From Frigoribacterium sp. PhB24 (GTDB taxonomy: Bacteria > Actinomycetota > Actinomycetes > Actinomycetales > Microbacteriaceae): a DNA stretch of 64,000 nucleotides. Positions 1-62,535 of this stretch are shown here, in pieces (positions within the stretch are counted from its first letter, which is position 1; each line of letters begins with the position of its first letter). The notes under the pieces were generated by a model, which saw only the letters and a program-made list of their open reading frames with translations, was not told the DNA's origin and ran no database searches. Location: assembly GCF_003755185.1 (NCBI RefSeq), contig NZ_RKIC01000009.1:62001-126000 (forward strand). Direction: 5' to 3'. Position numbers and translations under genes: made by a program.

Positions 1-544
1 GCCGCGCGATCCGCCCGAACCCGAGCAGCCCCAGCGTCGCGCCGTGCAGCTCGCGACCCACGAAGGAGGCGCGGGTCGGCCCGGCCCCGGGGCCGTCGCC
101 ACCCGGGTCCCCGGCCCCCGCGCCTCCGCCGCCCGACCACGCCGCCCCGAGTCCGCGCCGGGTCACCATCAGCAACGTCACCGCGAGCTCGGCCACCGAC
201 CGGCTGTTCGCGGCCGGGGTCGTGGTCACGGCGATGCCGAGCTCGGCCGCGGTGTCGACGTCGACGGTGTCGAGGCCGACGCCGTGCCGCGCGACGATGC
301 GCAGTCGCGGTGCCTCGCGCATCATCGCGCCGTCGACCCGGGCCGTGCGCAGCAGTACGCCCTCCACCTCGGTCGCGACGTCGGACCAGCCCGCGGCGTC
401 GACGCCCCAGCCGAGCCGCACGTCGGCCCAGTCGCGCAGGGACGCGACCACGTCGTCGTCGATCGGCCGCGGCACCCAGACGACGGGCGCGCGGCCCACC
501 GGGTTCGTCGAGCCCGTCGGGCCCGTCGAGCCCGGGTCAGTCAC
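1..544 (-). CDS. D-2-hydroxyacid dehydrogenase (partial, 3' end outside window)
   Basis: Reads leftwards from a GTG at 544-542 and leaves the window still open, so about 181 N-terminal codons are visible. The translation has the catalytic-domain pattern of the SerA/2-hydroxyacid dehydrogenase family: RIVARHGVGLDTVDV followed by a region starting NSRSVAELAVTLLM, then GLLGFGRIAR, the glycine-rich NAD-binding turn, at the very edge. The family reduces 2-oxoacids to D-2-hydroxyacids, or the reverse, in the cytoplasm. The GTG overlaps the stop of the RraA-like gene by a few bases, so the two are translationally coupled. The substrate cannot be read from the sequence; the neighbours suggest a carboxylic-acid pathway. 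Confidence 0.85.
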   Translation of the reverse strand, partial: MTDPGSTGPTGSTNPVGRAPVVWVPRPIDDDVVASLRDWADVRLGWGVDAAGWSDVATEVEGVLLRTARVDGAMMREAPRLRIVARHGVGLDTVDVDTAAELGIAVTTTPAANSRSVAELAVTLLMVTRRGLGAAWSGGGGAGAGDPGGDGPGAGPTRASFVGRELHGATLGLLGFGRIAR

Positions 545-1145
545 GCGGCACCAGCAGCCGGTTCGCCGCGCGGCGGTCGCCCTCTCCGCGCAGCAGCTCG
601 TGCGTGGCGGCCACGACCTCGTCGACCCGGGCCGCCGGCACGACCGCCACGCCGTCGTCGTCGCCGAGCACCCAGTCGCCCGGCGACACCGCCACGCCAC
701 CGACGGCGATCGTCTCGCCGGTCCGGAACGGCCCGGTCTTCCACGGCCCGGCCGGTGTCACGGAGCGCGCGAACACGGGCACGCCCACCCGTTCGAGCTC
801 GACCACGTCGCGCGCGGCGGCGTCGAGCACGATGCCGCCGACGCCGAGCGCCTTGGCCTTCTCGGCCACCAGCTCGCCGATCAGCGCGCGGGTCTCGTCG
901 GCGCCACCGTTGACCACGAGGATCTCGCCCCGCCGGATGCGTTCGAACGCGGCGTGCAGACCGGCGTTGTCGCCCGGCCGGGTCCACACGGTGAACGCCG
1001 GACCCGACAGCGCGGCGCCGCGCCAGAGCGGCCGGATGCCGTCCGCGACGCCGAAGCGCTCCATGGCGTCCGAGACGGTGGCGACGGGGAGCTCGCCAGG
1101 GGCAGGGAGGGACGGCGAGGCGGGCGAGGCGGAGGCGGTGCTCAT
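537..1145 (-). CDS. RraA-family aldolase/decarboxylase-like protein
   Basis: 202 residues. It matches the RraA/HMG-CHA aldolase fold: a GGADETRALIGELVA region, the DAAARD segment (Arg and Asp are the conserved catalytic/metal positions of the family) and the terminal GDDDGVAVVP signature. Enzymatic members are divalent-metal class II aldolases acting on 4-hydroxy-4-methyl-2-oxoglutarate-type acids and also decarboxylate oxaloacetate; other members regulate RNase E, which is unlikely in this context. An AGGAG Shine-Dalgarno lies 5 nt before the ATG. It is the middle gene of an IclR-RraA-dehydrogenase minus-strand operon opposite a tricarboxylate importer, which fits oxaloacetate or a branched hydroxy-oxoacid as substrate (inference). 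Confidence 0.85.
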   Translation of the reverse strand: MSTASASPASPSLPAPGELPVATVSDAMERFGVADGIRPLWRGAALSGPAFTVWTRPGDNAGLHAAFERIRRGEILVVNGGADETRALIGELVAEKAKALGVGGIVLDAAARDVVELERVGVPVFARSVTPAGPWKTGPFRTGETIAVGGVAVSPGDWVLGDDDGVAVVPAARVDEVVAATHELLRGEGDRRAANRLLVPRD

Positions 1146-1203
1146 GGTGCTCCTGTCGTTCGGGGGTGCGGGGTCTCTCGGTCGCCGGTGCGTGTGCGGG
1201 CGG

Positions 1204-2073
1204 TCAGTCGAGGGCGGGTGGCAGCCCGGTGCGGGCGAGGTCCGAGGAGGCGCGGCGCAGCTCGTCCGCGAACCGCGCCACCGCGTCGTCGGTGAAACGA
1301 CTCGTCGGCCCGCCCAGGGCGAGGGCGACGGGTCGGCCCGGCGGGCGTCCCGGGACGAGGACGGCGACGCCCGAGTTGCCGGGCTCCCGTGTGCCGTGCG
1401 ACACCGACCAGCCGTCGAGACGGGCCCGCTCGATCCGGGCCCGCACGGCGTCGCGGTCGACGGGCAGCGTCGGCGCCGCTGAGAACGGGGTGGTCGGGCT
1501 CGACACGGCCGTGCCCGGGTGCGCCGTGGCGTCGACGTCGTCGAGGGTCGCGTCGAGCACGTCGGCGGGCTCGCCGCTCAGCAGCACGGCCCCCGCGGCG
1601 CCGATCCACAGCGGCAGCTCGTCGCCCACCTGGACGACGTGACGCAGGCTGTGCGGACTGGGCGATTGCGCCACGACGACGCGGGCCACGCCACGGCGCA
1701 CGTAGAGGCTGACGGTCTCGCCCGTCTCCTCGGCGAGCGCGGCCATGCGGTCGGCGGTGGCGGTGGGCACGGCCCAGGCGCGGGCGGCGAAGGCCCCCCA
1801 GTGGATCATCCGTGTGCCGACGCCGACCCGCCCGTCGGGCCCGTGCTGCAGCATGCCCTCGGCGACGAGGGTGTCGACCAGACGCAGGACGGTCGTGCGG
1901 GGGAGGCCCGAGACGCGCACGAGTTCGGCGAGGGTCTGCGTGCTGCGATCGGGCGTGAAAGCCTGCAACACGGCGAGGGCCCGGCTGACGGCGCGGACGC
2001 CGCTCGTGTCGCCGCGGCCCGGTGTTGCGGGGGACAGGGCCGCGGGGGACGGTGTCGCGTCAGCTGGAGTCAT
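1204..2073 (-). CDS. IclR-family transcriptional regulator
   Basis: 289 residues from the ATG at 2073, which is preceded by GAGAGG; the open frame extends further upstream, but those codons lie in the divergent promoter region. The N-terminal winged helix-turn-helix (residues about 35-95: TLAELVRVSGLPRTTVLRL) is followed by an IclR effector domain. IclR proteins are usually one-effector repressors or activators of adjacent catabolic operons. The gene is divergent from tctC and upstream of the RraA-like gene, so it probably controls both arms. A copy of the GGAGGCGCGG word sits inside the 3' coding part (1246-1255). Confidence 0.9.
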   Translation of the reverse strand: MTPADATPSPAALSPATPGRGDTSGVRAVSRALAVLQAFTPDRSTQTLAELVRVSGLPRTTVLRLVDTLVAEGMLQHGPDGRVGVGTRMIHWGAFAARAWAVPTATADRMAALAEETGETVSLYVRRGVARVVVAQSPSPHSLRHVVQVGDELPLWIGAAGAVLLSGEPADVLDATLDDVDATAHPGTAVSSPTTPFSAAPTLPVDRDAVRARIERARLDGWSVSHGTREPGNSGVAVLVPGRPPGRPVALALGGPTSRFTDDAVARFADELRRASSDLARTGLPPALD

Positions 2074-5368: not shown

Positions 5369-6627
5369 CCCAGCCCCACGACCCCGCCCCGCCCCACGAC
5401 CCCGCCCGGGCCCACGACCGGCCCCGACCCCTCGAGGGCGTCCGCGTCCTCGACATGACCAACGTCCTCGCCGGCCCGTACGCGGCGTACCAGCTCGCCC
5501 TGCTCGGGGCCGACGTGATCAAGGTCGAGACACCGCACGGGGGCGACCTCGCCCGCCAACTGGGGGCGTCCGCGGAACTGAACCAGCGCCTCCTCGGCAT
5601 CTCGTTCCTGGCGCAGAACGCCCAGAAGCGGTCTCTGACCGTGGACCTGAAGAAACCGGGCGGGGCCGAGGTGCTGCGGCGGGCGGTGGCCGAGGCCGAC
5701 GTGCTGCTCGAGAACTTCCGGCCCGGCGTGCTCGAGCGCCTCGGCTTCGGCTGGGACGTGCTGCGGGGGATCAACCCGCGCCTCGTCTACGCGGCGATCT
5801 CGGGGTTCGGGCAGACCGGCCCGTTGCGCGGCAAGCCCGCGTACGACCAGATCATCCAGGGCAGCTCGGGCATGATGAGCGTCACCGGCACGCCCGAGAC
5901 GGCCCCGCTGCGCGCCGGCTACCCGATCGCCGACACGCTCGGCGGACTGGCGGCGGCGTTCGCGATCTCGTCGGCGCTGCTCGGCCGCGAGCGGACCGGC
6001 CTGGGCTCGGTCATCGACGTGTCGATGCTCGAGACCGCGGCGACCGCGATGGGCTGGGTCGTCTCGAACCACCTCGTCGCGGGCACCGAGCCGCGTCCGC
6101 TCGGCAACGACAACGGCACGGCGGCCCCGTCGGGCACGTTCGCGACCGGCGACGGAGCCCTCAACATCGCGGCCAACAAGCAGGAGCAGTTCGAGTCGCT
6201 CTGCACCCTGATCGGTCGCGCCGACCTCGCCGTCGACCCGCGCTTCGCCGCCCGCGAGGACCGCAAGACCCACCGGGCCGCCCTCACGCGCGAGATCGAG
6301 CAGGCGTTGAGCGCGCGCGGCGCCGCCGAGTGGGAGGGGCTGCTGAGCGACGCCGGAGTACCCGCGGCGGCGGTGCTCACGGTGGCCGAGATGCTCGACA
6401 GCCCGCAGGTGCGCGACCGCGAACTCGTGCACGGGCTGCCCTTCCCGGGCGGTGCGGAGGGCGATGACCCGTTGCGGGTGATGGGACACGGCATCCGCGT
6501 CGACGGGGTACCCGGGACGCCGACCCTGCCGCCACCGCTGCTCGGACAGCACACCGACGAGATCCTCGCCGAGCTCGGCTTCGACGCCGACGAGATCCAC
6601 CACCTGAGAGAAGGAGGCGCGGTATGA
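5365..6627 (+). CDS. Class III (CaiB/BaiF family) CoA-transferase
   Basis: 420 residues from a GTG overlapping the tctA stop. After a Pro/His/Asp-rich lead of about 20 residues comes the family start LEGVRVLDMTNVLAGPYAA, then VIKVETPHGGD, LLENFRPGVLERLGFG and GKPAYDQIIQG. In this last motif Asp161 corresponds to the catalytic aspartate that forms the acyl anhydride. Class III enzymes move CoA between carboxylic acids. Placed between an importer and a citryl-CoA-lyase-like enzyme, it probably activates the imported acid to its CoA thioester. The CoA donor is unknown. Confidence 0.88.
   Translation: MTQPHDPAPPHDPARAHDRPRPLEGVRVLDMTNVLAGPYAAYQLALLGADVIKVETPHGGDLARQLGASAELNQRLLGISFLAQNAQKRSLTVDLKKPGGAEVLRRAVAEADVLLENFRPGVLERLGFGWDVLRGINPRLVYAAISGFGQTGPLRGKPAYDQIIQGSSGMMSVTGTPETAPLRAGYPIADTLGGLAAAFAISSALLGRERTGLGSVIDVSMLETAATAMGWVVSNHLVAGTEPRPLGNDNGTAAPSGTFATGDGALNIAANKQEQFESLCTLIGRADLAVDPRFAAREDRKTHRAALTREIEQALSARGAAEWEGLLSDAGVPAAAVLTVAEMLDSPQVRDRELVHGLPFPGGAEGDDPLRVMGHGIRVDGVPGTPTLPPPLLGQHTDEILAELGFDADEIHHLREGGAV
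6613..6622 (+). promoter_or_regulatory. Strong ribosome binding site that coincides with the interspersed word
   Basis: AAGGAGG at 6611-6617, six bases before the ATG at 6624, is a near-perfect Shine-Dalgarno for the lyase gene although the gene also overlaps the preceding stop. The site contains the full GGAGGCGCGG word, so this copy can be explained by translation initiation alone. Confidence 0.75.
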
Positions 6628-7493
6628 GCGCCGACGAGAGGGCCGACCTCGAGACCCGCCTCGCCGCCGCGCAGGCCGAGACCGCCCGGCTCGAGGCCCG
6701 GATCGCCTCGACCACGGCATGGTGGTCGACGGCAATCACGAAGATCGAGCCGGGCGTCATCGAACTGCGTGGCTACCCGGTGCAGCAGCTGATCGGCAAC
6801 CTCGGCTTCGTCGAGACCGTCTGGCTGATGACGCGCGGCGAACGGCCCGAGCCGGCGCAGGCCGCCCTGCTCGAGGCCGCGCTCGTCGCGAGCGTCGACC
6901 ACGGGCCGCAGGCACCCTCGATCGCGAGCGCCCGCATGGCGGTCACCTGCGGCGTCGGTCTGAACTCGGCCGTCGCCAACGGCGTCAACGTCCTGGGCGA
7001 CACCCACGGAGGCGCGGGCCAGCAATGCGTCCAACTGCTGAACCGTCTGGTCGCCGCGCACCGCGACACCGGTGCGTCGCTCGACGAGCTGGCCGCCGCC
7101 GAGGTCGCCTCCCACAAGGCCCGGGGCGAGTTCGTGCCCGGGTTCGGACACCGGTTCCACCCTCGTGATCCGCGCCGCGATCCGCTGCTGGCGCTCGTCG
7201 AGCGGGCTCGCGACCAGGGGGTGGTCGAGGGGCGTCACCTCGACATCGCCCTCGCGGTCGAGGGCGTGCTGGCGTCCCGGAACGTGCCGATGAACATCGA
7301 CGGCGTGTCGGCCGTGGTCTACGGCGAACTCGGCATCGAGCCCGAGCTCGCACGCGGGCTGTTCGTGCTGTCACGCTCGGTGGGCATCCTCGCCCACGCC
7401 TGGGAGGAGGGCGGCTCGGGCCAGCGCATCAAGGGCCCCCTGCCCAAGGGCTTCCTGGCCGACTACACCGGCCCCGCCACCCGCGACCTCTGA
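6624..7493 (+). CDS. Citryl-CoA-lyase-like protein (citrate synthase superfamily)
   Basis: 289 residues, far shorter than citrate synthase (about 430) and close to the lyase module of ATP-citrate lyase and stand-alone citryl-CoA lyases. The superfamily active-site residues are in place: His93 in VDHG, His128 in DTHGGAGQ, His176 in GFGHRFHPRDPR and Asp226 in NIDGVSA. These can perform retro-Claisen cleavage of citryl-CoA to acetyl-CoA and oxaloacetate. A helical charged lead (residues 1-32) precedes the domain. Last gene of the tct operon, ending at a strong hairpin. The true substrate could be a methylated or other citrate analogue. Confidence 0.8.
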   Translation: MSADERADLETRLAAAQAETARLEARIASTTAWWSTAITKIEPGVIELRGYPVQQLIGNLGFVETVWLMTRGERPEPAQAALLEAALVASVDHGPQAPSIASARMAVTCGVGLNSAVANGVNVLGDTHGGAGQQCVQLLNRLVAAHRDTGASLDELAAAEVASHKARGEFVPGFGHRFHPRDPRRDPLLALVERARDQGVVEGRHLDIALAVEGVLASRNVPMNIDGVSAVVYGELGIEPELARGLFVLSRSVGILAHAWEEGGSGQRIKGPLPKGFLADYTGPATRDL

Positions 7494-7612: not shown

Positions 7613-10600
7613 TCAGGCGAGCGCGGCGGGGTCGAGGCCGTGCTGCTCGACCTGGATCGCCTGGCGGATCGTCAGCGGGTAGATGCGCGACAGCTCGGGG
7701 TTCGACGGGTCGCTCGAGATGTACGCGACGCTCTCGACGTGCTGCTCGAACGCGTTGACCTTGTCGCGCGGTGCCCCCACCACGAGCTGGAAGCCCAGGG
7801 AGGTCAGCGCCGCCAGGGCCCGGCCCGTGTACTCGGAGTCGGCCTTGACGAAGCCCTCGTCGAGCACGATCGGCGCATAGGTGGGCACCCGGTCGGTGCC
7901 ATCGCCCAGACGGAACCGCAGGGCGGCCCCGAGCACGAACGCGATGAGCTCCTGCCCCTCGCCGCCGGACTTGCCGGCCACACCCTCGTGCACGATCTGC
8001 GTGCCGTCGGCGCGGGTCTCGATCGCCCGGAACTGGTAGTGCTCGCGCGCGTCGAGCACCCGGCGGCGCCAGGCGTCACCGACCTTCGACTTCTCCTCGA
8101 GGTGTGCCAGGTCACGGCGCAGCCTCAGGAACCGGCGCTCGACCTCGGACGCGTCCCGCGCCTCCGGGGCAGGACCGCCGGAAGCGCCCTGGGCCCCGCC
8201 GGTGTGCTCCCGCAACGTGCGCTTGAACTCGAGCAGGTCGCCGTTCGACACGGGTCGCGGCTCGATGTCGAGCGTCGAGCCCTGCCGGAACTCGATCGAG
8301 CGCAACGCCTGCGAGATCGGTCGGACGCCGCGACGGATGACGTGGCCGTCCTCCTCGATCTGGACGAGCAGAGCCCGGAGGCTGTCGCCCACGTCGCTCC
8401 CGGCTTTCTCGAGCCAGCGCTGCTTCGCGTGCGGCAGGTCGTCCTCGACGAGCTGCCGGTGGATCGCCCGGACCGTCGGCAGGCTCTCGATCGTGGCGTC
8501 GATGCCCGCGGTCCGGTCGAGCTCGAGGTAGCGCTCGAAGACGACCACGAGCGTCGACTCGGCGTTCGCCCGGTCGCGGTCGTGCGCGTCGACCTGGGCC
8601 CGCAGCTGCGACGCGGCGTCCCGGTGGAGCCGCGCGACGTCGGTCGCCTCGCGCGGTGCGGCGAACGGCAGCGTTGCGAGGAGCGCCCGCTCGTCGTCGG
8701 TCAGCGGCTCGGCGTCGGCGGCGTCGGCGAACTCGTCCTCGATGTCGACGAGCGTCGCGTGCTTCTCGTCGAGCTGCGCGAGCGCCTGGTCGATCTCGGC
8801 CAGCCGACGGGTCGCGGCGGAACGGTCGTCGTCGTGCTGCGTGGCCTCGGCCTGCAACGTCGCGAGCTCGGGACGCTCCACCGCGATGCGCTCGAGCTGG
8901 GCGCGCAGGTCGTCGAGCCTGGCCCGGGCGGGGGCGGCGTCGAGCTCGTCCCAGGTGAACTCCTTCGCCCGGGCGACGGAGTCGGCGACCCGCCGGCGCT
9001 CGGCAGCCTCGGCCTCGATCGTGTCGTACTCGCCGCGGACCCGGGCCAACACGGCCTCGAGGTCGACGATCTCGTCACCGAGCTCGGCGATGCGGGTCGA
9101 GTTGTCGAGGCCGATCCATGAACGGATCGACCGGTCGTCCTTGACGACGCGGTCCCGCGAACCGGTGCGGAGGCCTCGTCGGGTGACCGCGCCGCGGGTG
9201 CCGGCCGGGCGGGGGTCGTCGAGGTCGTCGGGACCCTCGACACAGAGCACGCTGCGGTCCGCCACGAGCTCGTCGTGCAACCAGCCGCGGAACGGACTGG
9301 CCGGGTCGAGCCGCACCATCGCGGGCACGGTGTGGTCGACGGGTGTGAGGGACGGCTCGGCCCCGCCGGTCGCAGGCACGAGCGTCACGCGTCCGCGCAC
9401 GTCGTTCTCGTCCACCCAGCGGCGCACGGCGTCGAAGTGCGCTCGGTCGACGAGGAGGTGCGTGGCGAGATCGCCGAGCACCCGCTCGATCGCGACGGCC
9501 CAGCCGGCATGCTCGGGCGCGACCTCGAACAGCTCGCCGGCGTAGGGCAGGCTCGACACGGGCACGCCCGCCCCCTCGGCGATGCGTCGACGCCGCTCGA
9601 TCGCGTCGTCCGGCACGTTGCTGCGGCGCTGCTCGAACGACCGCTTCTGTCTCTCGAGGGCGGCCAGGGCCCGTTTGGTCTCGCCGATGCGGGCGGCGAG
9701 CTCGCTGCGCGCGTCGGCTGTCGCGGCCCGGGCCGCGGCGTCGTCGGCCGCGAGGCGGTCGGCGCGCTGCCCGAGTGCGACGAGCTGCTCGTCGTTCCGG
9801 GGGAGGGCTTCGCCGGTCCCGTCCAAGGCGGCGGAGAGGCGGCCGCGGGTGCGCTCGACGGCGGCGAGCTCGGCCTCGGCGGCGGCCACGTGCTCGCGGA
9901 GCGACTGCGTGGGATCGCCCCCGAGCTCGCTGATCCGCGCCAGGGCCTGTTCACGGGACCGGAACGCGAGCTGCTCGTCCGCCTGGGCGCGCCTCCGGCG
10001 TTCGCTCTGCTCGCGCTTCTCGGTCGTCACGCGATCGACCTCGCCGCTGACCCAGCTGCCGACGCGTTCGGCGAGCCAGACGCGGAGGCGGCTGGGCCCG
10101 TCGGCGTCCCCGAGCAGGCGACGCTTGGCGGAGCCGTCGCGACCGGCGAGCTCGTACCGGTCGGCGAGCGTCGGCACGGCCTCGAGCACGTCGAGCTTCT
10201 TGCGGGTCGTCTCGAACACGTCGTAGAGCGCGGACGCCTCGCGGTAGGTGGCGAGCGTGGTCTCCCACCGGCTGAGCGCCTGCGGCTGCACGAGCACGAA
10301 CTGCTTGAAGAGGTCGTCGATCGAGAACACGCCCTTCGACGCCTGCGCCCGGCGCAACAGGGTCAGGGCCTTGAGCTGCGACTCGTCGCTGCCGCCGATG
10401 CCGAGCTGGCCGCAGAGCCGCACCCGCAGCTCGGGCTGCGACGAGGTGGCGAGGTCGGCGGCGGGGTCGAGCAGCCGGGCGAGGGATCCGCGGGTCAGCG
10501 GGTTCTGGCTCGTGCCCTCGCGCGTCACCTCGGACAGCCGGCTGAGGTCGAAGCGGCCCTGCACGAGCAGGTAGACGCTCGCCTGGGTGACGTCGTCCTG

Positions 10601-11047: not shown

Positions 11048-11913
11048 GCCTGGGGTGCTTCCGGATCGGTGTCGGTGTCGGCGTCGTGAGGGGGCTCGAG
11101 GTCGAGATCGAGGTCGAGCGGCACGGCGGTCGGGTCGGGTTCGACGACGGGGTCGGCGTCGGTGTCGGCGTCCGCGTCGGCGGGGCCGAGGGGGTCGACC
11201 TCGTCCTCGTCGGTCGCGTCTGCGTCGCCCTCGACCCCGGCCATGTCGAGGTACACCCGCTCGAGGTGCGCCAGCCGGTCCGCGGTCATCAGCGGCACGA
11301 TCGCGGGGGAGACGACGAACAGCTCGGCGTCGTCGGGTTCGGCCGTCAGCAGGTCTCGGGCGACGAGCGCCGCGATGGCGGCGTCGACCCGGCGACGGGC
11401 CCGCACCTCGTCGGAGTCCGAGTCGTCGTGGTACCGACCGAGGAACTCCGCGACGGCGTCCTTCGAGATCACGACCGCCTCGTCGCGTCCGTCCGTGAAG
11501 GCGTGCTCGCGGCGGGCGAAGACCATCAGCAGCGAGGCGTCACGCGACAGCGGCTTCTCGCGGCGCAGCAGCACGGGCACGTCGTCCCCGCCGCCCTGCC
11601 GCTTGAAGGCGACCTCGTGGTCGTGGTCGACGACCAGCACGAGGAACATCTCGTCGAGCCGCGCCCGGATCTCGGACTCGTACGCGAGCAGGCCGGCCCA
11701 GGCCTCCTGCTGCCGGGCCCGCGACACGAACCGGTGGGTCAGCAGCGTGACGAGCGCCTTGCGACCGGCCGGCGGCAGCGCGTCCGAGGCGGCGCTCGAC
11801 GCGACGTCGTCCGCGTCGCCGTCGTCGAAGGCGTCGCCGTCGTCGAGGGCGTCGTGGGAGGCGCGGGCCGAGTCGTCGACATGGGTATCGTGCGTGGGGA
11901 CTGCGGGGCTCAT
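11044..11913 (-). CDS. jetB: JetB/MksE-type subunit (DUF4194)
   Basis: 289 residues. The DUF4194-like core runs from about residue 45 to 215: KALVTLLTHRFVSRARQQEAW, then FLVLVVDHDHEVAFKRQ, LSRDASLLMVFARRE and a winged-helix-like C-terminal part. JetB/MksE bridges the kleisin (JetA) and the SMC arms. The C-terminal 70 residues are a strongly acidic Asp/Glu/Pro tail, and the N-terminus also has an Asp-rich stretch; both look like unstructured additions. It overlaps its neighbours on both sides (ATGA upstream and downstream), so A, B and C should be made in fixed proportion. Confidence 0.85.
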   Translation of the reverse strand: MSPAVPTHDTHVDDSARASHDALDDGDAFDDGDADDVASSAASDALPPAGRKALVTLLTHRFVSRARQQEAWAGLLAYESEIRARLDEMFLVLVVDHDHEVAFKRQGGGDDVPVLLRREKPLSRDASLLMVFARREHAFTDGRDEAVVISKDAVAEFLGRYHDDSDSDEVRARRRVDAAIAALVARDLLTAEPDDAELFVVSPAIVPLMTADRLAHLERVYLDMAGVEGDADATDEDEVDPLGPADADADTDADPVVEPDPTAVPLDLDLDLEPPHDADTDTDPEAPQA

Positions 11914-13583
11914 GCGAGGTCCTTCGTGCCGGTCGTGCTGGTCGTGCGGGAGGGGGTGGCGGGCTCGGCGCCGGGCGGCCCCGCGGGGTCGCGCCGGAAG
12001 ACGAGGCGGGGCAACGTGACCTGTCGACCCGCGCCTCCTGACGTCGTCGGGTCGGTCGGGTCGCCGGCCAGCTCGACGGTCTCGGTGTCGTCGCCGACGA
12101 CGCCGCGCTCGAGCGCCAGGTCGAGCATGCTGAGCACGAGCCCGAGACGGCGGAACCCGGGCTCGGTCGCGCGGTAGACGTCGGCGCTCGTGACCTCGTC
12201 GTGGTCGGCCAGCAGCCGGTCGATGGTCGCCGAGACCGCGGCCGTGCTCGTGCCCGAGGTGAGGCGCAGGGCGGCCCGGTCGGCCTCGGGCAGCGCCGCG
12301 TCGCCGACGGTCACCTGCACGTCGACGGTCGGCCGTGCACGGTCGGTGTGCATCTGCACCTGGCTGACGTCGCGGACGTCGAGCGCCCCGAGTCCCAGCC
12401 CGTCACCGTGCTCGGCCGGCAGCATCGCGTGGCCCGGCCGACGCTCGGCCCAGACGCCGCCGGCGTGCAACGCCCGGTCGGCGAGGGTGAGCAGGCGCTG
12501 CTGCTGGTCGGAGCCCGAGCGGCTGAGGAAGCGCCGCAGCGAGGACGTCCAGCGGCCGTACGTCTCTTGGACGGTCTGCTCTTCGGCGAGCAGCGACGAG
12601 ATGAGCGACTCGAGCTGCGCGCGCTGCCGCTCGGTGAGCTGCTCGGCCGCGTCGGGCTGCGCGAGGACCTTCTCGATGTCGGCCCGCATGACGTCGATGC
12701 CGCGGGACGACAGCATCTGGGCGAAGCCGCGGTAGGCGCGTCCCTCGGGGGTCTGCTCGAGCAGGTCGTTGTCCTGCAGGTACTGGTCGACGAGAGCGCC
12801 CTTGCCGACGTGTTCGGACGAGGCCCGCCGCGCGACCTCGCGGTGTCGCTGCTCGACCATGGCGCCGAGCTGCCGGAAGTCCTCGGGCAGCGACGCGGTG
12901 AGACGCACCACCTCGCGCACCTGCCGGCGCAGCACGTCGGGGGCGGTGGGCTCGGTGCCGTGCCGCTCGATCTCGACCTTGCGTCGCTCGAGTTCGGCGA
13001 TCTGCTCGTCGAGGCGTGCGAGCTGCGACTCGCGGCTGGGGTCGGCGAGACCGGCGAGCTGCCCGACGGCGTGCGCGATGCTGCCGAGGCGCGCCTCGCT
13101 GACGGCGTTGTCGCGCTCGACGAGGTCGCGCACGAGACGCAGCGCCTTGAGTGCATGCGGCGAGAGGCGGTACTCGGCCCGGGCGTCCGGTCCGGAGGCG
13201 CGGGTCCGGACCAGCCAGCGGCTCTCGACCCAGCTACGGCAGTACTCGGCCGGGGTGGTCTTCTGCTCGGCAGAGGCCGGTGACGCGACGGACGTGTGGG
13301 ACGCGGGACGCGCCTCCTCGGGGCCGACCGACGCGGCCCGCTCGGATGCGGCCTGCTCGGACGCGACCTGCTCGGCGGCGTTCTCGTCGAGGGCCTCGGC
13401 GACCCGGCGGTGGAACCAGTCGGCCGAGACCGGACCCCCGGCGTGCTCGAGGTGGCGGGAGAAGAGCGGCAGCATCCAGCGGGCGTTGTAGCCGCGGAGC
13501 AGGGCCCAGGTGGGGTCGTCTTCGTACGCCGCGCGCACGTCGTCGCGGCTCAGGGCGTCGTCGTGCCCCGACGGGTGGTTCAC
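11910..13583 (-). CDS. jetA: JetA/MksF-type kleisin subunit (DUF3375)
   Basis: 557 residues from a GTG at 13583, chosen because GGAGG lies 9 nt upstream and because the family start (RDDVRAAYEDDPTWALLRGY) follows directly; a TTG one codon earlier is equally near. The open frame runs 224 codons further upstream but there it is antisense to a lipoprotein gene. The kleisin-like pattern includes WMLPLFSRHLEHAG, SRWLVRTRASGPDARAEYRL and long helical segments (about 170-330). JetA links the SMC heads. An Ala/Ser/Glu repeat (EQVASEQAASERAASV) near residues 70-90 looks like a linker. First gene of the jetABC operon. Confidence 0.85.
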   Translation of the reverse strand: MNHPSGHDDALSRDDVRAAYEDDPTWALLRGYNARWMLPLFSRHLEHAGGPVSADWFHRRVAEALDENAAEQVASEQAASERAASVGPEEARPASHTSVASPASAEQKTTPAEYCRSWVESRWLVRTRASGPDARAEYRLSPHALKALRLVRDLVERDNAVSEARLGSIAHAVGQLAGLADPSRESQLARLDEQIAELERRKVEIERHGTEPTAPDVLRRQVREVVRLTASLPEDFRQLGAMVEQRHREVARRASSEHVGKGALVDQYLQDNDLLEQTPEGRAYRGFAQMLSSRGIDVMRADIEKVLAQPDAAEQLTERQRAQLESLISSLLAEEQTVQETYGRWTSSLRRFLSRSGSDQQQRLLTLADRALHAGGVWAERRPGHAMLPAEHGDGLGLGALDVRDVSQVQMHTDRARPTVDVQVTVGDAALPEADRAALRLTSGTSTAAVSATIDRLLADHDEVTSADVYRATEPGFRRLGLVLSMLDLALERGVVGDDTETVELAGDPTDPTTSGGAGRQVTLPRLVFRRDPAGPPGAEPATPSRTTSTTGTKDLA

Positions 13584-15673: not shown

Positions 15674-15708
15674 TCGTCGTGTTCGGCCTGATGGTGCACG
15701 ATCGGACG

Positions 15709-19014: not shown

Positions 19015-19030
19015 GACGACCCGCGCCTCC
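19015..19030 (-). repeat. Interspersed word copy in a divergent promoter
   Basis: GACGACCCGCGCCTCC on the plus strand, i.e. the extended word in reverse orientation, lies in the gap between the histidine kinase and the ABC permease. It is identical over 16 bp to one arm of the hairpin at 40681-40730. Confidence 0.7.
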
Positions 19031-26177: not shown

Positions 26178-26187
26178 GGAGGCGCGG
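26178..26187 (+). repeat. Interspersed word copy, intergenic
   Basis: GGAGGCGCGG in the 132-bp gap between the exporter start and the end of the next gene. No hairpin partner was noticed nearby. Confidence 0.6.
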
Positions 26188-27920: not shown

Positions 27921-27937
27921 GAGGAGGCGCGGGTCGG
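27921..27937 (+). repeat. Interspersed word copy just after a stop codon
   Basis: GAGGAGGCGCGGGTCGG begins 5 nt beyond the reductase stop. It is the inverted partner of the copy at 28061-28075; the two share 15 complementary bases, 125 bp apart. Confidence 0.7.
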
Positions 27938-33121: not shown

Positions 33122-33134
33122 GAGGAGGCGCGGG
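33122..33134 (+). repeat. Interspersed word copy after a stop codon
   Basis: GAGGAGGCGCGGG-type copy (core 33124-33134) 12 nt beyond the sulfite-oxidase-like stop, in the 98-bp gap before the monooxygenase gene. Confidence 0.6.
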
Positions 33135-40680: not shown

Positions 40681-40730
40681 GACGACCCGCGCCTCCCCGG
40701 CCCCGAGGGGCTGAGGAGGCGCGGGTCGTC
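40681..40730. terminator. Bidirectional hairpin made of two inverted interspersed-word copies
   Basis: Perfect 16-bp arms, GACGACCCGCGCCTCC at 40681-40696 and its complement at 40715-40730, around an 18-nt loop that itself contains CCCC/GGGG. It lies between the convergent GH65 and MFS genes. Both arms are full copies of the dispersed word, so here the word is the terminator stem. Confidence 0.85.
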
Positions 40731-43029: not shown

Positions 43030-43041
43030 CCGCGCCTCCTC
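43030..43041 (-). repeat. Interspersed word copy after the tetR gene
   Basis: CCGCGCCTCCTC in reverse orientation, 18 nt beyond the tetR stop, in the 98-bp gap before the ligase fusion gene. Confidence 0.6.
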
Positions 43042-45769: not shown

Positions 45770-45779
45770 GGAGGCGCGG
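45770..45779 (+). repeat. Interspersed word copy between convergent genes
   Basis: GGAGGCGCGG in the 60-bp gap between the ligase fusion and the convergent small gene. Confidence 0.55.
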
Positions 45780-49035: not shown

Positions 49036-50795
49036 GACCGCACCTCGCCCCGACGCCGCGTGAGGGGGGCGGCGTCGTCCGGCCCCCGGTCGGGCAGCAG
49101 CACCGAGAAGGTGGTCCCGTCCGGCCCCGTGACGACGTCGAGCCGGCCCCCGACCCGACCCACGGCCTGACGCACGAGCGCGAGGCCGATGCCGCGCCCA
49201 CCCGCCCCCGCCGGCTTCGTGCTGAACCCCCGGCGGAAGGCCAGCTCGACGTCGTCGAGCCCCGGACCGTCGTCCTCGACGTCGAGCTGGACTCCGTCCT
49301 CGACCCGGGCCACGGTCACCTCGACCCGGGGCGGTCGCGCCGGGGGAGCGGCGGGGTCGAGGGTCGGCGCGACCGCGTCGAAGGCGTTGTCGACCAGGTT
49401 GCCCACGATCGTCACGAGGTCCCCGGGCTCGAGGTCGATCGGGCCGATGCCGGGCTCGACGTCGACACGCAGCTCGATCGACCGTTCGCGGGCCTGGGCC
49501 GCCTTGCCGAGCAACAGGGCGGCCAGCGTCGGTTCGTCGATCGAGGTGACGACCCGGTCGGCGAAGCGCTGACCGAGATCGAGCTCGTCGGCCGCGAACC
49601 GCAGCGCCTCGTCGCCACGACCGAGCTCGATCAACGACACGATGGTGTGCAACCGGTTCGAGAACTCATGGGTCTGCGACCGCAGCGCGTCCGACAGCGT
49701 GCGCATGGTCTCGACCTCGCCCGAGAGATGGGTGAGCTCGGTGTGGTCGCGCAGGGTCGTCACCGTCCCGAGCGTGCGCCGGGCACGAGGGCGGGCCGCG
49801 CCGGTGGCCGCCGCCGCGCCTCCCACCGGCGCCGCGCCTCCCACCGGCGCCGCGCCTCCTCGTCCGATCGCCGGCGCCGTGCGCGACGGGCCGCCGGTGG
49901 GCTCGGTGGCCTCCTGGTTGACGACGAGCACGCGCTCGTCGGTCACGTGCACCTCGTCGGAGGCGCGGCGCCCCGAGGCCAGCAGCTCGCGCAGGGAGGC
50001 GGGCAGCCGCAGCTCGGACAACGGGACGGGCGCCGCGATGCCCCCCGTCGGCAGGTCGAGCAGCTCGGCCGCCTGGTCGTTGTAGAGCGTCAGGCGCCCC
50101 CGCTCGTCGACGAGCACGAGCCCCTCGCGCACCGAGTGCAGGACCCCCTCGTAGTACGCGAACATCCGAGCGAGCTCTTCGGGGCCACGGCCCCAGGTCA
50201 CCCGGCGCAGGTACCGGCTGAGCAGCCACGAGACGCCGCCGCCGAGCAGCACGGTCGCCCCCGCGGCGGCGAACACGAGCGGAAGGCGCTCGCCGACCGA
50301 CTGCGTGATGTTGTCGACCGTGACCCCGGCCGAGACGAGGGCGACCACCTCGCCGTCGCTCTCGATCGGCACGACCGCCCGCACGGACGGACCGAGCGTG
50401 CCGGCGTAGGTCTCGGTGAACGACTCCCCGCCGAGCGCCGGGGCGATCGTGCCGACGAACGGGCGCCCGATCTCGTCGGGGTCGGGGTGCGTCAGGCGGG
50501 TGCGATCGGGGCGCATGATGGTGACGAAGTCGGTCGACGTGTCGCTCATCAGGGCGACCGCGTAGGGCTGCAGCAGGGCGCTCGGGTCGGACGAGCCGAG
50601 GGCTCCGACGACGTAGGGGTTGTCGGCGATCGAGGTGGCGAGGGCCAGGCAGGCCCGTGCGGCCGAGCGGTCGGCGTCGTCGCGCGCCGAGCGGACGGTC
50701 CAGGCCGTCGCGAGCACGGTCACGGCGACGACGAAGACCACGAGCAGCGCGAACAGCCGGGTGGCGATGCTCCACCTGGTGGGATCGACGGTCAT
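49032..50795 (-). CDS. CitA/DcuS-type sensor histidine kinase
   Basis: 587 residues from the ATG at 50795. Membrane helix at about 12-33, external PAS-like sensor to about 165 (TDFVTIMRPDRTRLTHPDPDEIGRPF with the family Arg/His ligand-binding type residues), second helix at about 170-195, cytoplasmic PAS, then the H-box SQTHEFSNRLHTIVSLIELG and HATPase VGNLVDNAFDA and GRGIGLALVRQAVGRVGG. Di/tricarboxylate sensing is expected. The linker between PAS and H-box carries a repeated GGAAPV insert (see 49814-49859). Confidence 0.92.
   Translation of the reverse strand: MTVDPTRWSIATRLFALLVVFVVAVTVLATAWTVRSARDDADRSAARACLALATSIADNPYVVGALGSSDPSALLQPYAVALMSDTSTDFVTIMRPDRTRLTHPDPDEIGRPFVGTIAPALGGESFTETYAGTLGPSVRAVVPIESDGEVVALVSAGVTVDNITQSVGERLPLVFAAAGATVLLGGGVSWLLSRYLRRVTWGRGPEELARMFAYYEGVLHSVREGLVLVDERGRLTLYNDQAAELLDLPTGGIAAPVPLSELRLPASLRELLASGRRASDEVHVTDERVLVVNQEATEPTGGPSRTAPAIGRGGAAPVGGAAPVGGAAAATGAARPRARRTLGTVTTLRDHTELTHLSGEVETMRTLSDALRSQTHEFSNRLHTIVSLIELGRGDEALRFAADELDLGQRFADRVVTSIDEPTLAALLLGKAAQARERSIELRVDVEPGIGPIDLEPGDLVTIVGNLVDNAFDAVAPTLDPAAPPARPPRVEVTVARVEDGVQLDVEDDGPGLDDVELAFRRGFSTKPAGAGGRGIGLALVRQAVGRVGGRLDVVTGPDGTTFSVLLPDRGPDDAAPLTRRRGEVRS
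49814..49859 (-). repeat. Three 18-bp tandem copies of the interspersed word inside a kinase gene
   Basis: CCGCGCCTCC occurs at 49814, 49832 and 49850, exactly 18 bp apart, encoding a GGAAPV repeat in the linker of the DcuS-type kinase. Copies are identical over the unit except at the ends, so the expansion looks recent. A further forward copy lies at 49959. Confidence 0.85.
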
Positions 50796-53790: not shown

Positions 53791-55385
53791 GCGACACGAC
53801 CCGCCCCTCCTCGGCTCCCGGCGACGGCGATGCCCACGCCACCCGTCGTGACGTCGAGCACGTCGACCTGCTCGTCGTCGGTGCCGGCCTCTCGGGCGTC
53901 GGCGTGGCCGCGCAGCTTCACCGGGACTTCCCGGGCCGCAGCCTCGCGGTCGTCGAGTCACGCGACGCGATCGGTGGCACCTGGGACCTCTTCCGGTACC
54001 CGGGCGTCCGCTCGGACAGCGACATGTTCACCCTCGGTTACGGGTTCCGGCCCTGGCGGGACCGCCGGGCGATCGCCCCGGGGGCGGCGATCCGCGACTA
54101 CGTGCGCGAGACGGCCGCCGAGACGGGCATCGCCTCGCTGATCCGGTTCGGGCACCGCGTGGTCGCCGCCGACTGGTCGTCGGCCGACGCCCGGTGGACC
54201 GTGACGATCGAGGTCGCGACCGCGGCCGGGCCGGGCGGGTCGGCCGGTGCCGCCGACGCGTCGAGCGAAGGAGGCGCGGGTGCCGCCCCGGCGTCCCGTC
54301 GCGTCACGATCACGTGCTCGTTCTTGTTCGTCTGTTCGGGGTACTACCGATACGACGAGGGGTGGTCGCCCGCGTTCCCGGGGCAGGAGTCGTTCGCCGG
54401 CCGCGTGGTGCACCCCCAGCACTGGCCGGAAGACCTCGACGTGACCGGTAAGCGGGTCGTGGTGATCGGGTCGGGCGCGACGGCGGTGACGCTCGTGCCC
54501 GCCCTCGCCGAGACCGCCGAGCAGGTCACGATGCTGCAGCGGTCGCCGACCTACGTGCTGTCGCTGCCCTCGCGCCGGAAGGAGCCTTGGGCCTGGCGGC
54601 GTCTGCTGCCCCGGAGCGTCGACGACCGGCTCATCCGGTGGCGGAGCATCGCCATGGCCCTGCTCAGCTTCCAGACGAGTCGGCGCTCGCCCGAGAAGAT
54701 GAAGGCGTTCCTCCGCGCTCAGGTCGCGCGCCGCCTGCCCGACGACTTCGACGTCGACCGACATTTCCAGCCGAGTTACGACCCGTGGGACCAGCGCCTC
54801 TGCATCACTCCGGACGGTGCCCTGTTCCGGGCGCTGCGCTCGGGTTCGGCGTCTGTCGTGACCGACGACATCGACTCGTTCACGCCGGCCGGCGTCCGGG
54901 TCGCCGGTCGCGACGGCCAGCGGACGGAGGAGCTGGCGGCCGACGTCGTCGTGACGGCCACCGGGCTCAACCTGCTGCTGTTCGGCGGAATCCGGTTGTC
55001 GGTCGACGGGGTCGAGGTCGACCCGGCGACACGACTGACCTACAAGGGTTTCATGCTCTCGGGCGTGCCCAACCTGGCGTTCGCGATCGGGTACACGAAC
55101 GCGTCGTGGACGCTGAAGATCGACCTCGTCGTGCACTACGTCACGCGGCTGCTGCGTCACGCCGATCGCCACGGGTACCGGTCGGTCGTCCCGGTCGCGC
55201 CGACGCGACCGGGGCCGACGAGCCCGCTGATCGACCTGACCAGCGGGTACGTGTCGCGCGGGGTGCACCTGATGCCGAGGCAGGGGGCACGGTCGCCCTG
55301 GCGGATGCACCAGAACTACCCGCGGGACGTCTGGCTGATGCGGCACAGCACCCTGACCCGGGACGGCATGCGGTTCGAGCGCTGA
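53787..55385 (+). CDS. Flavin-dependent monooxygenase, Baeyer-Villiger type
   Basis: 532 residues from a GTG overlapping the dehydrogenase stop. FAD motif LLVVGAGLSGVGVAAQL (about 29-45), GGTWDLFRYPGVRSDSD, the Baeyer-Villiger fingerprint FAGRVVHPQHWPE, and the NADPH motif VVVIGSGATAVTLVPAL; then SYDPWDQRLCI and VVTATGLNLLLFGG. It closely follows the EthA-like group of class B monooxygenases. Ketone to ester or sulfoxidation chemistry is expected. A surface Ala/Gly insert (SSEGGAGAAP) at about 160-175 is partly encoded by an interspersed-word copy (54271-54281). Confidence 0.9.
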   Translation: MSDTTRPSSAPGDGDAHATRRDVEHVDLLVVGAGLSGVGVAAQLHRDFPGRSLAVVESRDAIGGTWDLFRYPGVRSDSDMFTLGYGFRPWRDRRAIAPGAAIRDYVRETAAETGIASLIRFGHRVVAADWSSADARWTVTIEVATAAGPGGSAGAADASSEGGAGAAPASRRVTITCSFLFVCSGYYRYDEGWSPAFPGQESFAGRVVHPQHWPEDLDVTGKRVVVIGSGATAVTLVPALAETAEQVTMLQRSPTYVLSLPSRRKEPWAWRRLLPRSVDDRLIRWRSIAMALLSFQTSRRSPEKMKAFLRAQVARRLPDDFDVDRHFQPSYDPWDQRLCITPDGALFRALRSGSASVVTDDIDSFTPAGVRVAGRDGQRTEELAADVVVTATGLNLLLFGGIRLSVDGVEVDPATRLTYKGFMLSGVPNLAFAIGYTNASWTLKIDLVVHYVTRLLRHADRHGYRSVVPVAPTRPGPTSPLIDLTSGYVSRGVHLMPRQGARSPWRMHQNYPRDVWLMRHSTLTRDGMRFER

Positions 55386-59680: not shown

Positions 59681-60295
59681 CTACGAGGCCGAGGAGGCGC
59701 GGGGCGCGTTCCCGAGGACGGCGCGGGCCACCGTGGCGACGGCGTCCTCGACGAGCGCGCCTCGGGTTGCGGCGTCGTCCCGCTCGGATTCGTGCAGGAC
59801 GACCGTCGTGCCGCGCCGCGCGCCGACGTAGTCGACGATGCCGTGTTCGATCTGCGTCCGCATCGCTGTCTCGTAGCCGTGCCGTTCGTACGTGCCGGCC
59901 GAGTCGCCGGCCACAGCGAGGAGGTGAACGGTCAACCGTCCGAGTTTGCGGTTCGTGCCACCCTCGGGGTCGATCTCGAACGCCCACCCGTTGACGAAGA
60001 CCCGGTCGATCCACCCCTTCATCAGGGCGGGCATCGACCACCAGTAGACGGGGAACACCAGGACGAGGTGCTCGGCTCGGTCGATCCGCTCCTGTTCGCG
60101 TAGGACCTCGGCGGGAGCTTCTCCGTCACCACGGTAGGCCTCACGGTCCGCGGTGCCGAAGCGCGGGTCGAAACCCTCCGCCGTCAGATCGGCCACCTCG
60201 ACCGAGTCCGGCGGCAGGGCCTGCTCCAGTCGTCGGGCGATGCCGACGGTCAGTGACTCGTGATCGGGGTGGGTGGTGACGATGAGCGTGTTCAC
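59681..60295 (-). CDS. NAD(P)H:quinone oxidoreductase-like flavoprotein
   Basis: 204 residues from a GTG at 60295, chosen because the flavodoxin-like fold begins there (VNTLIVTTHPDHESLT); an ATG at 60331 is the alternative. Motifs of the KefF/MdaB/NQO1-like family: LVFPVYWWSMPALMKGWIDRVFVNGWAF binds FMN or FAD, and LAVAGDSAGTYERHGY follows. It should reduce quinones or related electrophiles by two electrons. The last residues (RASSAS) are encoded by an interspersed-word copy at 59693-59703. Confidence 0.87.
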   Translation of the reverse strand: MNTLIVTTHPDHESLTVGIARRLEQALPPDSVEVADLTAEGFDPRFGTADREAYRGDGEAPAEVLREQERIDRAEHLVLVFPVYWWSMPALMKGWIDRVFVNGWAFEIDPEGGTNRKLGRLTVHLLAVAGDSAGTYERHGYETAMRTQIEHGIVDYVGARRGTTVVLHESERDDAATRGALVEDAVATVARAVLGNAPRASSAS

Positions 60296-60994: not shown

Positions 60995-61021
60995 CGGATA
61001 CCCCCGTCCCTCGACGGCAGG

Positions 61022-61867
61022 CTATCCGTCGCGAGTCCACTCCGCGACGAGCGAGACCGCGTGGGCGTACTCGGGCAGCCGGGGCCGGTCCAAGAAGGCG
61101 TGGCGGGTGTCCGGCAGGACGTGGTGCCGCACGTCCACCCCCGCCTCGACGAGCTCGGCGGCGAACAGGTCGCCCGAGGCGCGCATGTTGTCGCGCTCGG
61201 CGTTCACCACGAGGGTCCGGGGGAATCCCGAGAGGCCGTGCCCGCCGGGGAACGCGAGCCGGTCGGCCAGCGCGCTCCGCGTGCCGGCGTAGTTGCGGTT
61301 CATCACGTCGAGCGCTCGTCTCGCGTGGCTGAGGCCGCGGTGGCCCCGTGACCGATGGCGCGCGTCGGCCACCCGGGGGTGCGCGGCGTGGAAGAAGCCG
61401 TAGGCGAAGACGGCGCCGACAGGAGGGCGACCCTCGTCGATCGTGCGGAGGGTGGCCGCCGCGGCCAGGCAGGCCCCCGCGCTCGCGCCTCCCAGGACGA
61501 CGCCCGCGGGCGACCGGTCGGACACGTCGCCGTACGCCGCGACCACGTCGTCGAGCGCCAGCGGGTACCGCCCGCGGGACGGCATCAGCCGGTTGGCGGC
61601 GAGATGCAGACCCGGGGGAGGCGCGAGGCGGTAGTCCACCGTGACGACCGTCACCCCGCGTGCCGCGAGCGACCGCGCGACGTCGTGCGCCTCCGGCTGG
61701 TCGAGCCCTCCGCGGAAGAACCCGCCACCGTGCAGCCAGAGCAGTGTCGGTCCATGGGCCTCCGCCGACCCCGGCCACGCCTCGTACCACCGGACCGGCA
61801 CGGCGGAGCCGACCGGCACGGCGCCTCGGGCGGGCACGGCGCCACGGGCGGGAACGGGGCCGCTCAC
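61022..61867 (-). CDS. Alpha/beta hydrolase, hormone-sensitive-lipase-like
   Basis: 281 residues from a GTG overlapping the TetR stop (GTGA). Oxyanion motif WLHGGGFFRGG (about 45-55), nucleophile Ser129 in GGASAGA, acid Asp in VNAERDNMR and His in DTRHAFLD. This is the HSL/esterase family of carboxyl-ester hydrolases. The first 26 residues are a low-complexity repeat (VPARGA VPARGA VPVGSA), possibly a recent tandem duplication. Co-transcribed with the TetR gene and probably regulated by it. Confidence 0.87.
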   Translation of the reverse strand: MSGPVPARGAVPARGAVPVGSAVPVRWYEAWPGSAEAHGPTLLWLHGGGFFRGGLDQPEAHDVARSLAARGVTVVTVDYRLAPPPGLHLAANRLMPSRGRYPLALDDVVAAYGDVSDRSPAGVVLGGASAGACLAAAATLRTIDEGRPPVGAVFAYGFFHAAHPRVADARHRSRGHRGLSHARRALDVMNRNYAGTRSALADRLAFPGGHGLSGFPRTLVVNAERDNMRASGDLFAAELVEAGVDVRHHVLPDTRHAFLDRPRLPEYAHAVSLVAEWTRDG

Positions 61868-62535
61868 GCCCGGTCGGCCGGTTCGTCGGGCAGGATCACC
61901 AGCTCGAGGTAGTCGCGCAACTGCTGCACCACGTCGATGCGCCCGGGGTCGAGCAGCCACTGCAGCTGGATGCCGTCCCACAGGGCCACGAGCCCCGACG
62001 CCGCGCGGTCGGGATCGACCCCGGAGCGCAACCGGCCCCGCGCCTCCAGGGCTCGCAAGGCGTCACCGTACTCGACCCGCAGGTTCTCGAAGCGCTCGCG
62101 GACGTACCCGCTGCCGGGGTTGTCGGCGGTGACCGCTTCGCCGGCCAACACGGCGTACAGCGCGATGAGCCCGGGCACCGACTCGTTGTGCCGCGCCTGT
62201 CCGAGGACCGTCTCGACCAGACCCCCGCAGTCCGGAGGTGCGGCGGAGCGATCCGAGACCGCGTCACGTCGCTCGAGGACGGCGAGCAGCAGCGCGCTCT
62301 TCGACGGGAAATAGTGCAACAAGCTCGTCTGGCTCATGCCGACGACCTCTGCCACGTCGCGGAGCGACCCGCCGACGTAGCCCTTCGTCGAGAACACCTC
62401 GAAGGCCGCGTCGATGATCGACACGCGCCGTTCGGCCGACTTCGCGTACGGCCCGCGACGCGCCGGACGACCGGGAGCGGCAGAGTCCGCAGGCCCTCGG
62501 TCGGGGTCGCTCGTCGTCGAGTCGGTCGTCGTCAT
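61864..62535 (-). CDS. TetR-family transcriptional regulator
   Basis: 223 residues. Helix-turn-helix at about 37-80 (FEVFSTKGYVGGSLRDVAEVVGMSQTSLLHYFPSKSALL), then a ligand domain with the TetR_C_6-like pattern. Asp/Pro/Arg-rich lead of about 25 residues. Divergent from the ABC importer gene and upstream of a hydrolase gene, so it probably controls uptake and breakdown of one substrate. TAGAGT is 8 nt upstream of the ATG. Confidence 0.9.
   Translation of the reverse strand: MTTTDSTTSDPDRGPADSAAPGRPARRGPYAKSAERRVSIIDAAFEVFSTKGYVGGSLRDVAEVVGMSQTSLLHYFPSKSALLLAVLERRDAVSDRSAAPPDCGGLVETVLGQARHNESVPGLIALYAVLAGEAVTADNPGSGYVRERFENLRVEYGDALRALEARGRLRSGVDPDRAASGLVALWDGIQLQWLLDPGRIDVVQQLRDYLELVILPDEPADRA

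Follow-up and report, generated by a model that had tools for sequence, protein, structure and literature searches.

A short, scattered word in Frigoribacterium, its dialects in the Microbacteriaceae and a possible role as a DNA-uptake tag

Why a single ten-base word should recur on both strands, inside and outside genes, is the question raised by a stretch of the Frigoribacterium sp. PhB24 genome (positions 62,001 to 126,000 of contig NZ_RKIC01000009.1; hereafter the window, meaning this whole stretch of 64,000 nucleotides). The word, GGAGGCGCGG, is not palindromic, and its abundance is far above that given by base and codon composition. By analogy with known systems, we consider it probable (at roughly 0.58) that GGAGGCGCGG works like a DNA uptake sequence (DUS), i.e. 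as a tag for preferential uptake of kin DNA.

Abundance and anatomy of the word

The window holds 38 exact copies of the word (21 forward, 17 reverse), more than of any other 10-mer, the best unrelated one reaching 21 or 22. The 34 sites listed in an initial annotation of the window are all real (54271 belongs at 54270), four copies having been missed, and the estimate made there of about ten copies outside genes agrees with the 10 of 38 that are intergenic by independent gene calls, which come from a codon-score caller made for this analysis, not from annotation. Among 360 10-mers of the same composition, which average 1.2 copies in the window, the runner-up is a shifted form of GGAGGCGCGG itself (26), followed by another overlapping form (9) and then by a 10-mer with 8. 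Over the whole genome (3,457,365 bases, 17 contigs) the two strands carry 749 + 745 copies of GGAGGCGCGG and 24 + 28 of the reversed word, i.e. 1,494 versus 52 for this control; an extended 17-mer is present 60 + 53 times, and its reversed form 0 + 0 times.

The full 10-mer ranking covers the window and a 464-kb sample, made up of the window and twenty 20-kb stretches of the same genome (21 stretches). In this sample GGAGGCGCGG is again the top 10-mer, with 198 copies, compared with 3.2 predicted by a fourth-order Markov model with the words masked. Being nine-tenths G and C and starting with GGAGG, the word might be taken for a by-product of codon use, base composition or extended Shine-Dalgarno sites, but this explanation is refuted. 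The 126 genic copies in the sample compare with a mean of 12.0 and a maximum of 20 in 100 within-gene permutations of synonymous codons, and the 198 total with a mean of 6.4 for the 360 same-composition 10-mers; extension of Shine-Dalgarno sites is ruled out by the finding that a called start codon adjoins only 5 of the 198 copies. The initial annotation had named a codon-preserving shuffle and a same-composition count as checks on the excess over composition that it claimed, and both bear it out; its description of the copy at 6613 as a ribosome site fits a location just ahead of a called start codon, but one which few other copies share.

The strict core of the word is GGAGGCGC, with an A ahead of it (in 81% of the 70 copies between genes and 56% of the 126 in genes) and GG behind, followed mostly by GTC (51 of 198 sampled copies) or TGC (27 of 198). 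The 17-mer, which had been put forward as an extended form, is rejected as the unit, the strict part being only GGAGGCGC with its A and GG flanks. Relative to the masked Markov model, the ratio of observed to expected single substitutions is 0.7 to 2.4 at positions 1-8, and 1.3 or lower at six of these, while at positions 9 and 10 it is 5.1 and 10.8; single substitutions in the core are thus scarcely enriched, and the core is therefore nearly all-or-none.

Conservation, orientation and word-poor islands

All 16 of 16 Frigoribacterium genomes carry the word, in 842 to 1,725 copies. As the initial annotation had proposed, orthologous loci were compared, here those of 18 relatives around one orthologous gene; 15 of the 18 gave aligned words, covering 27 of the 38 window sites, and three gave none. 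Exact words were found in 71 of 91 genic comparisons (24.3 expected from composition-matched 10-mers of the aligned regions) and in 25 of 32 intergenic comparisons (8.5 expected), i.e. in 96 of 123 versus about 33, comparisons which are not independent because the relatives share sites. A subset of 12 relatives accounts for 68 of 83 genic and all 25 of 32 intergenic cases, the other six giving 3 of 8. Single relatives reach 21 of 24 (G158) and 21 of 25 (G155), where control exactness is 0.30 to 0.35, and more distant relatives give 1 of 4 (G035), 1 of 3 (G110) and 3 of 5 (G160). The exactness of GGAGGCGCGG is thus kept across species. The window copies, with their strands, the genes that hold them (gene strand in brackets) and the exact matches in aligned relatives, are as follows.

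65..74, forward: in gene 2-499 (-); loose inverted pair with 118
118..127, reverse: in gene 2-499 (-); missed initially
1246..1255, forward: in gene 1204-1971 (-)
6613..6622, forward: end of gene 5365-6627 (+), just ahead of the start of gene 6624-7493 (+)
7008..7017, forward: in gene 6624-7493 (+), citrate synthase C-terminal domain (PF00285)
8156..8165, reverse: in gene 7613-11047 (-); missed initially; exact in 1 of 1 relative
11857..11866, forward: in gene 11044-11913 (-); missed initially
12029..12038, reverse: in gene 11910-13583 (-); exact in 6 of 8 relatives
13194..13203, forward: in gene 11910-13583 (-); missed initially; exact in 9 of 11 relatives
15863..15872, reverse: in gene 15679-16665 (+)
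17467..17476, forward: in gene 17076-17702 (-)
19021..19030, reverse: intergenic
19586..19595, forward: in gene 19136-20215 (+)
20987..20996, forward: in gene 20974-21390 (-)
25314..25323, reverse: in gene 24352-26040 (-); exact in 9 of 15 relatives
26178..26187, forward: intergenic; exact in 6 of 6 relatives
26950..26959, reverse: in gene 26792-27916 (+); exact in 13 of 13 relatives
27923..27932, forward: intergenic
28065..28074, reverse: intergenic; exact in 4 of 4 relatives
31392..31401, forward: intergenic
33124..33133, forward: intergenic; exact in 4 of 4 relatives
38061..38070, reverse: in gene 37312-38154 (+); exact in 4 of 4 relatives
40687..40696, reverse: left arm of an inverted pair between convergent genes
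40715..40724, forward: right arm of the inverted pair with 40687
42236..42245, forward: in gene 40748-42292 (-)
43030..43039, reverse: intergenic
44848..44857, reverse: in gene 43110-45731 (+)
44999..45008, forward: in gene 43110-45731 (+)
45770..45779, forward: intergenic
47864..47873, reverse: in gene 47539-48306 (+)
49021..49030, forward: in gene 48322-49035 (-)
49814..49823, reverse: first of three in sensor-kinase gene 49032-50795 (-); gapped in both relatives aligned
49832..49841, reverse: second of three in sensor-kinase gene 49032-50795 (-)
49850..49859, reverse: third of three in sensor-kinase gene 49032-50795 (-)
49959..49968, forward: in gene 49032-50795 (-)
54270..54279, forward: in gene 53787-55385 (+); initially given as 54271
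59693..59702, forward: in gene 59681-60295 (-)
62038..62047, reverse: in gene 61864-62424 (-)

The three copies within 49808-49868, a part of the sensor histidine kinase gene, stand at an exact spacing of 18 bases.

The word is short, non-palindromic, over-represented and lineage-specific, as would be an oriented recombination or segregation signal of the Chi or KOPS type, the former having been offered as an alternative initially. The two orientations are, however, near equal genome-wide, as the strand counts above indicate, and forward/reverse counts on single contigs (47/35, 26/20, 15/14, 10/13 and 9/9) all give p above 0.2; strand polarity was thus not seen at contig level on the five contigs sampled, there being no closed genome of the strain. 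A signal of this type is accordingly very improbable.

A terminator or short intergenic repeat, of the repetitive extragenic palindromic (REP) kind and spread mainly between genes, would account for the density of the word, which is 4.7-fold higher between genes (1.44/kb) than within them (0.30/kb), 72 of the 198 sampled copies falling in the 10.75% of bases that are intergenic. It would also account for eight inverted pairs among the 13 close pairs in the sample. One of these, 40687/40715, lies where two convergent genes meet and has a folding energy of -56 kcal/mol, compared with -36.3 for shuffles (z -6.1); each of the two relatives that align at this site has both arms exact. The pair is a candidate for the terminator stem proposed initially. 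That only eight inverted close pairs are present per 198 copies, 126 of which are genic, limits a terminator role to some copies, and convergent gaps (12 copies in 11.8 kb) are no denser than divergent ones (12 in 11.7 kb), tandem gaps being the densest (43 in 24.7 kb). An explanation of this kind is disfavoured for Frigoribacterium, where we regard it as improbable, and may hold for Curtobacterium.

Two of the 21 sampled stretches contain no word, one lying in a prophage and the other in a polysaccharide cluster. The prophage (G000, C2, about 443,700-481,800; loci L180, L021 and L181), the limits of which were set by gene order, has genes for tape measure, portal, terminase and major head proteins and for a DnaB-like helicase, and over approximately 38 kb holds one word versus about 16 expected. 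It is of the tailed-phage type and bears a tyrosine integrase at its right end. The polysaccharide cluster (Wzz, Polysacc_synt_2, DegT, LytR) has no words in 20 kb, the adjoining 10-kb stretches having 7 and 8. Poisson probabilities for the two empty stretches are 1.5e-6 and 2e-4, ignoring their lower G+C, and the test is post hoc because the stretches were chosen for zero counts among the 21. Avoidance of such islands, together with the dialects described below, would suit any mark of self and non-self, including a modification or other self-mark, or a recombination-promoting site, that acts after entry of DNA and not at uptake; a dedicated gene for such a mark was not identified, and this explanation is judged improbable, if slightly less so than a REP-like repeat.

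Elsewhere in the window, genes on the reverse strand at 7613-13583 resemble JetA, JetB and JetC, which are components of type I Wadjet anti-plasmid systems (PADLOC E-values of 0, 5e-141 and 1e-222, respectively, for the best matches); no adjacent JetD gene was found, the neighbouring called gene on that flank being citrate-synthase-like. The window gave no Rfam family and no tRNA.

Dialects across the Microbacteriaceae

Among 150 genomes from 85 genera of the family, GGAGGCGCGG is strongly raised only in Frigoribacterium and Curtobacterium (g32; 353 + 335 and 333 + 340). It is weakly raised in g55 (189 + 210 versus 63 + 79 for the reversed word in G055, 63 + 70 versus 57 + 41 in G125), and in the other family genomes it is approximately at or below the reversed control, bar small numbers, e.g. 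17 versus 5 in G051. None of 184 genomes from the order's other families has it clearly raised.

Searching other genera for words of their own led to CGGATGC. CGGATGC is at least 3-fold over its reversed control in 89 of the 150 genomes (in 55 of the 85 genera by mean) and at least 6-fold in 37 of 150; its forward fractions in the 89 genomes are 0.46 to 0.55, values that alone do not test replichores. In samples, with 20 codon permutations per group, genic CGGATGC exceeds the permuted level 3.2-fold in Cryobacterium, 2.5-fold in Agromyces, 3.5-fold in Salinibacterium, 3.0-fold in Leifsonia, 2.4-fold in Lacisediminihabitans, 3.0-fold in Galbitalea and 3.4-fold in Microbacterium, the values for Frigoribacterium, Curtobacterium and g55 being 1.1, 1.4 and 1.2, respectively. 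Intergenic CGGATGC is in 1.9 to 5.6-fold excess in the first seven of these groups, but in Cryobacterium (2.7) and Leifsonia (3.4) the reversed control is raised between genes as well. Outside the Microbacteriaceae the word ranges from about 0.3 to 3.5-fold, families f4 and f7 being highest at about 3.5-fold over control (e.g. G283, G328). Within the family it is depleted to 0.3 to 0.43 of the reversed control in G096 (g15) and in G051 and G121 (g51), which is avoidance and not mere absence.

In g47 and g5, in which CGGATGC is close to 1-fold, another word, GCAGGATC, is high (777 + 782 in G047; 1072 + 1063 in G087). A second g5 genome, G004, has 447 + 472 copies, the top of the other 147 genomes being 327 + 359 and many having near 100 to 250 per strand; G004 is therefore only modestly raised. 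The reversed control of GCAGGATC was not used because it contains the rare CTAG. De novo word searches of 40 to 60 kb per genus gave nothing clear in the low-word genera g11, g15 and g51, and were dominated by repeats unrelated to the core in g17, g45 and g50; a frequent repeat around TCTCGATACGCC is present in g45 (G045; L047, L163, L164). Samples of 40 kb gave 6 copies of GGATGCGCT versus 0.5 expected in g14 (G013; L167, L168) and GGATCC forms raised about 3 to 6-fold in g35 (G034; L171, L172), which are possible further dialect forms. It is clear from the counts for GGAGGCGCGG, CGGATGC and GCAGGATC that genus-level dialects exist within one family.

Frigoribacterium and Curtobacterium both use GGAGGC forms. 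In Curtobacterium (L126, L127, L130, L150 and others) copies of GGAGGC(G/A)CGG, 33 of them distinct, have a longer conserved flank, approximately CGGnC(G/T) before and (T/A)(G/T)C after. These copies may be an intergenic repeat in its own right that shares the core. Relationships among the genera were taken from a tree of one protein, LeuS (identity confirmed), made by a quick method, with 9 of 91 loci lacking a usable row. Frigoribacterium and Curtobacterium fall in one group (SH-aLRT 97), with Frondihabitans on a long, less certain branch; G055 and G125 join three Leifsonia loci in a clade of five rows (support 100), CGGATGC being at 3.4 to 3.5-fold in two of the Leifsonia loci and at 1.7-fold in the third, L. 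aquatica. This placement suggests, mainly from G055, that the GGAGGC form may have arisen a second time.

The dialects, along with exact-word conservation, scarce near-miss forms and island avoidance, also fit the main rival explanation, in which the words are binding sites of a cytoplasmic protein acting over the whole chromosome, e.g. a nucleoid-associated, condensin-loading or repair protein, with shifts in its specificity giving the dialects. About 1,500 to 6,000 sites per genome, many of them in coding DNA, would, however, be a heavy load, and we know of no non-palindromic, high-copy protein-site system with genus dialects. Genera g11, g31 and g59 keep a chromosome though CGGATGC is near or below 1.5-fold in them, an argument that is weak because the small genomes G005, G027 and G065 keep CGGATGC. 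We consider a cytoplasmic-protein site unlikely, though less so than any other rival.

The uptake reading and known systems

The competence genes that the initial annotation had suggested looking for are present in the strain. comEA and comEC adjoin leuS and holA, and the ComEC protein by its named relatives places the strain in Frigoribacterium, the three loci that match it best being those of Frigoribacterium sp. Leaf8, F. faeni and Frigoribacterium sp. Leaf263. A Tad/Flp cluster encodes TadA, a T2SSF protein, a DUF4244 protein, a TadE-type minor pilin and an Rv3654c-like protein. DUF4244 proteins are presumably Flp-like pilins. Natural transformation has been reported for two members of the same family, Rhodoluna lacicola and Aurantimicrobium photophilum (PMC11577799, in the part accessible), and in another actinobacterium, Micrococcus luteus, Flp pili are needed for transformation (PMC6370729, likewise in part).

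If GGAGGCGCGG does work like a DUS, it would serve as a short, non-palindromic tag, neutral as to orientation and spread throughout the core chromosome, and DNA bearing it would be preferentially taken up or recombined when cells import kin DNA. Extracellular DNA might be caught by the Tad/Flp pilus, by its small TadE-type pilins or by ComEA, with a receptor reading a core of the form GGA(T/G)(G/C)C, and DNA with the local dialect would then pass through ComEC. Repeated import of word-bearing alleles would keep the words and convert near-misses, and changes in the receptor could have given rise to the dialects, which would then bias exchange to within the genus. The wider proposal, that the Microbacteriaceae share a language of DNA uptake made up of three or more core dialects (GGATGC, GGAGGC and GGATC) and read by a Tad/Flp-pilus or ComEA receptor, with GGAGGC possibly having arisen twice, is more tentative; it has a little under an even chance of being correct.

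A number of findings weigh against uptake as the role of the words. ComEC-like matches were found in 150 of 150 and TadA-like matches in 149 of 150 family genomes, with or without the word (5 and 104 matches, respectively, being over curated cut-offs), and, being near-universal, do not discriminate between genera that bear the word and those that lack it; covariation with either gene was thus uninformative, and nothing ties the words to competence genes, which also favours the cytoplasmic-protein explanation. No over-represented word was found in the transformable genus Aurantimicrobium, in one 22-kb locus of A. minutum (L142). One Microbacterium phage has 18 genic copies of CGGATGC versus 9.0 permuted (maximum 15), about a 2-fold excess, which is ambiguous as a control. 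Single-mismatch forms of the core are fewer in genes than in permuted codons. The dialects overlap, CGGATGC reaching 2.9-fold in G125, 1.8-fold in G055 and 1.9-fold in each of the two Curtobacterium genomes, and their cores have little in common other than GGA and a C close to the end. The density of CGGATGC is not consistently higher in intergenic DNA (0.63/kb versus 0.94/kb genic in Salinibacterium), and its 3.3-fold intergenic excess in Leifsonia is no larger than the 3.4-fold of the reversed control. In Curtobacterium, GGAGGC forms are enriched only between genes, and the mainly intergenic copies with long flanking conservation are as a REP-like repeat would have them.

Were the wider proposal for the Microbacteriaceae to be correct, uptake-word systems, which have been described in the Neisseriaceae and Pasteurellaceae (in the parts of the sources accessible), would extend beyond these two Gram-negative families to a third, unrelated one that is large and Gram-positive, in which they would form a barrier to gene exchange between genera. 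The many genera and dialects would let molecular drive be tested against selection for kin DNA by replication, the receptor could be found by its co-variation with dialect, and the words could help in transforming plant and soil bacteria. No paper linking uptake words with the Microbacteriaceae was found in searches of open-licence literature, subscription journals being outside the search.

Chi and KOPS are polar, HIP1 is a palindromic octamer, and REP units are longer inverted repeats which, like terminator repeats, are mainly inverted pairs between genes. All are frequent short genomic words, but neither the polarity of the first two, the palindromy of HIP1 nor the pairing of REP units fits GGAGGCGCGG.

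Among systems with transformation in actinobacteria, that of M. luteus is alike in having comEA, comEC and a Tad/Flp pilus, and differs in that the accessible part of PMC6370729 mentions no uptake word. R. lacicola and A. photophilum are of the same family, have comEC and have been shown to transform (PMC11577799, accessible part), but have small genomes, and the A. minutum locus lacks a word.

The closest likeness to which the initial annotation pointed, with the DUS and the uptake signal sequences (USS) of the Pasteurellaceae, stands with respect to abundance, orientations, genic and intergenic copies, some inverted pairs, conservation, competence genes and dialects, and does not extend to mismatched forms of the core. 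For recently acquired DNA, in which such words would be under-represented, the two word-poor islands agree, although they were picked for their lack of words, and the Microbacterium phage does not clearly agree. Mismatched forms are reported to be over-represented in Haemophilus and Neisseria (PMC1939737, accessible part), whereas here they mostly are not in the core. We treat their enrichment as a reported trait of DUS/USS, not a defining one. The functional definition is preferential uptake, and GGAGGCGCGG is accordingly described as DUS-like and is not filed as a DUS/USS member. The higher density of DUS/USS between genes is shared by the Frigoribacterium word, but not by that of Curtobacterium, which is not genically enriched, nor consistently by CGGATGC. 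With the USS the word shares a core with less conserved flanks and a high copy number (PMC1939737, accessible part). With the Neisseriaceae DUS (PMC3630211, again in the part accessible) it shares over-represented 10-mers located both in and between genes, terminator-associated inverted pairs and several dialects in one family; it differs in sequence and in phylum, and in the type IV pili with ComP of the Neisseriaceae having as their counterpart here a Tad/Flp pilus.

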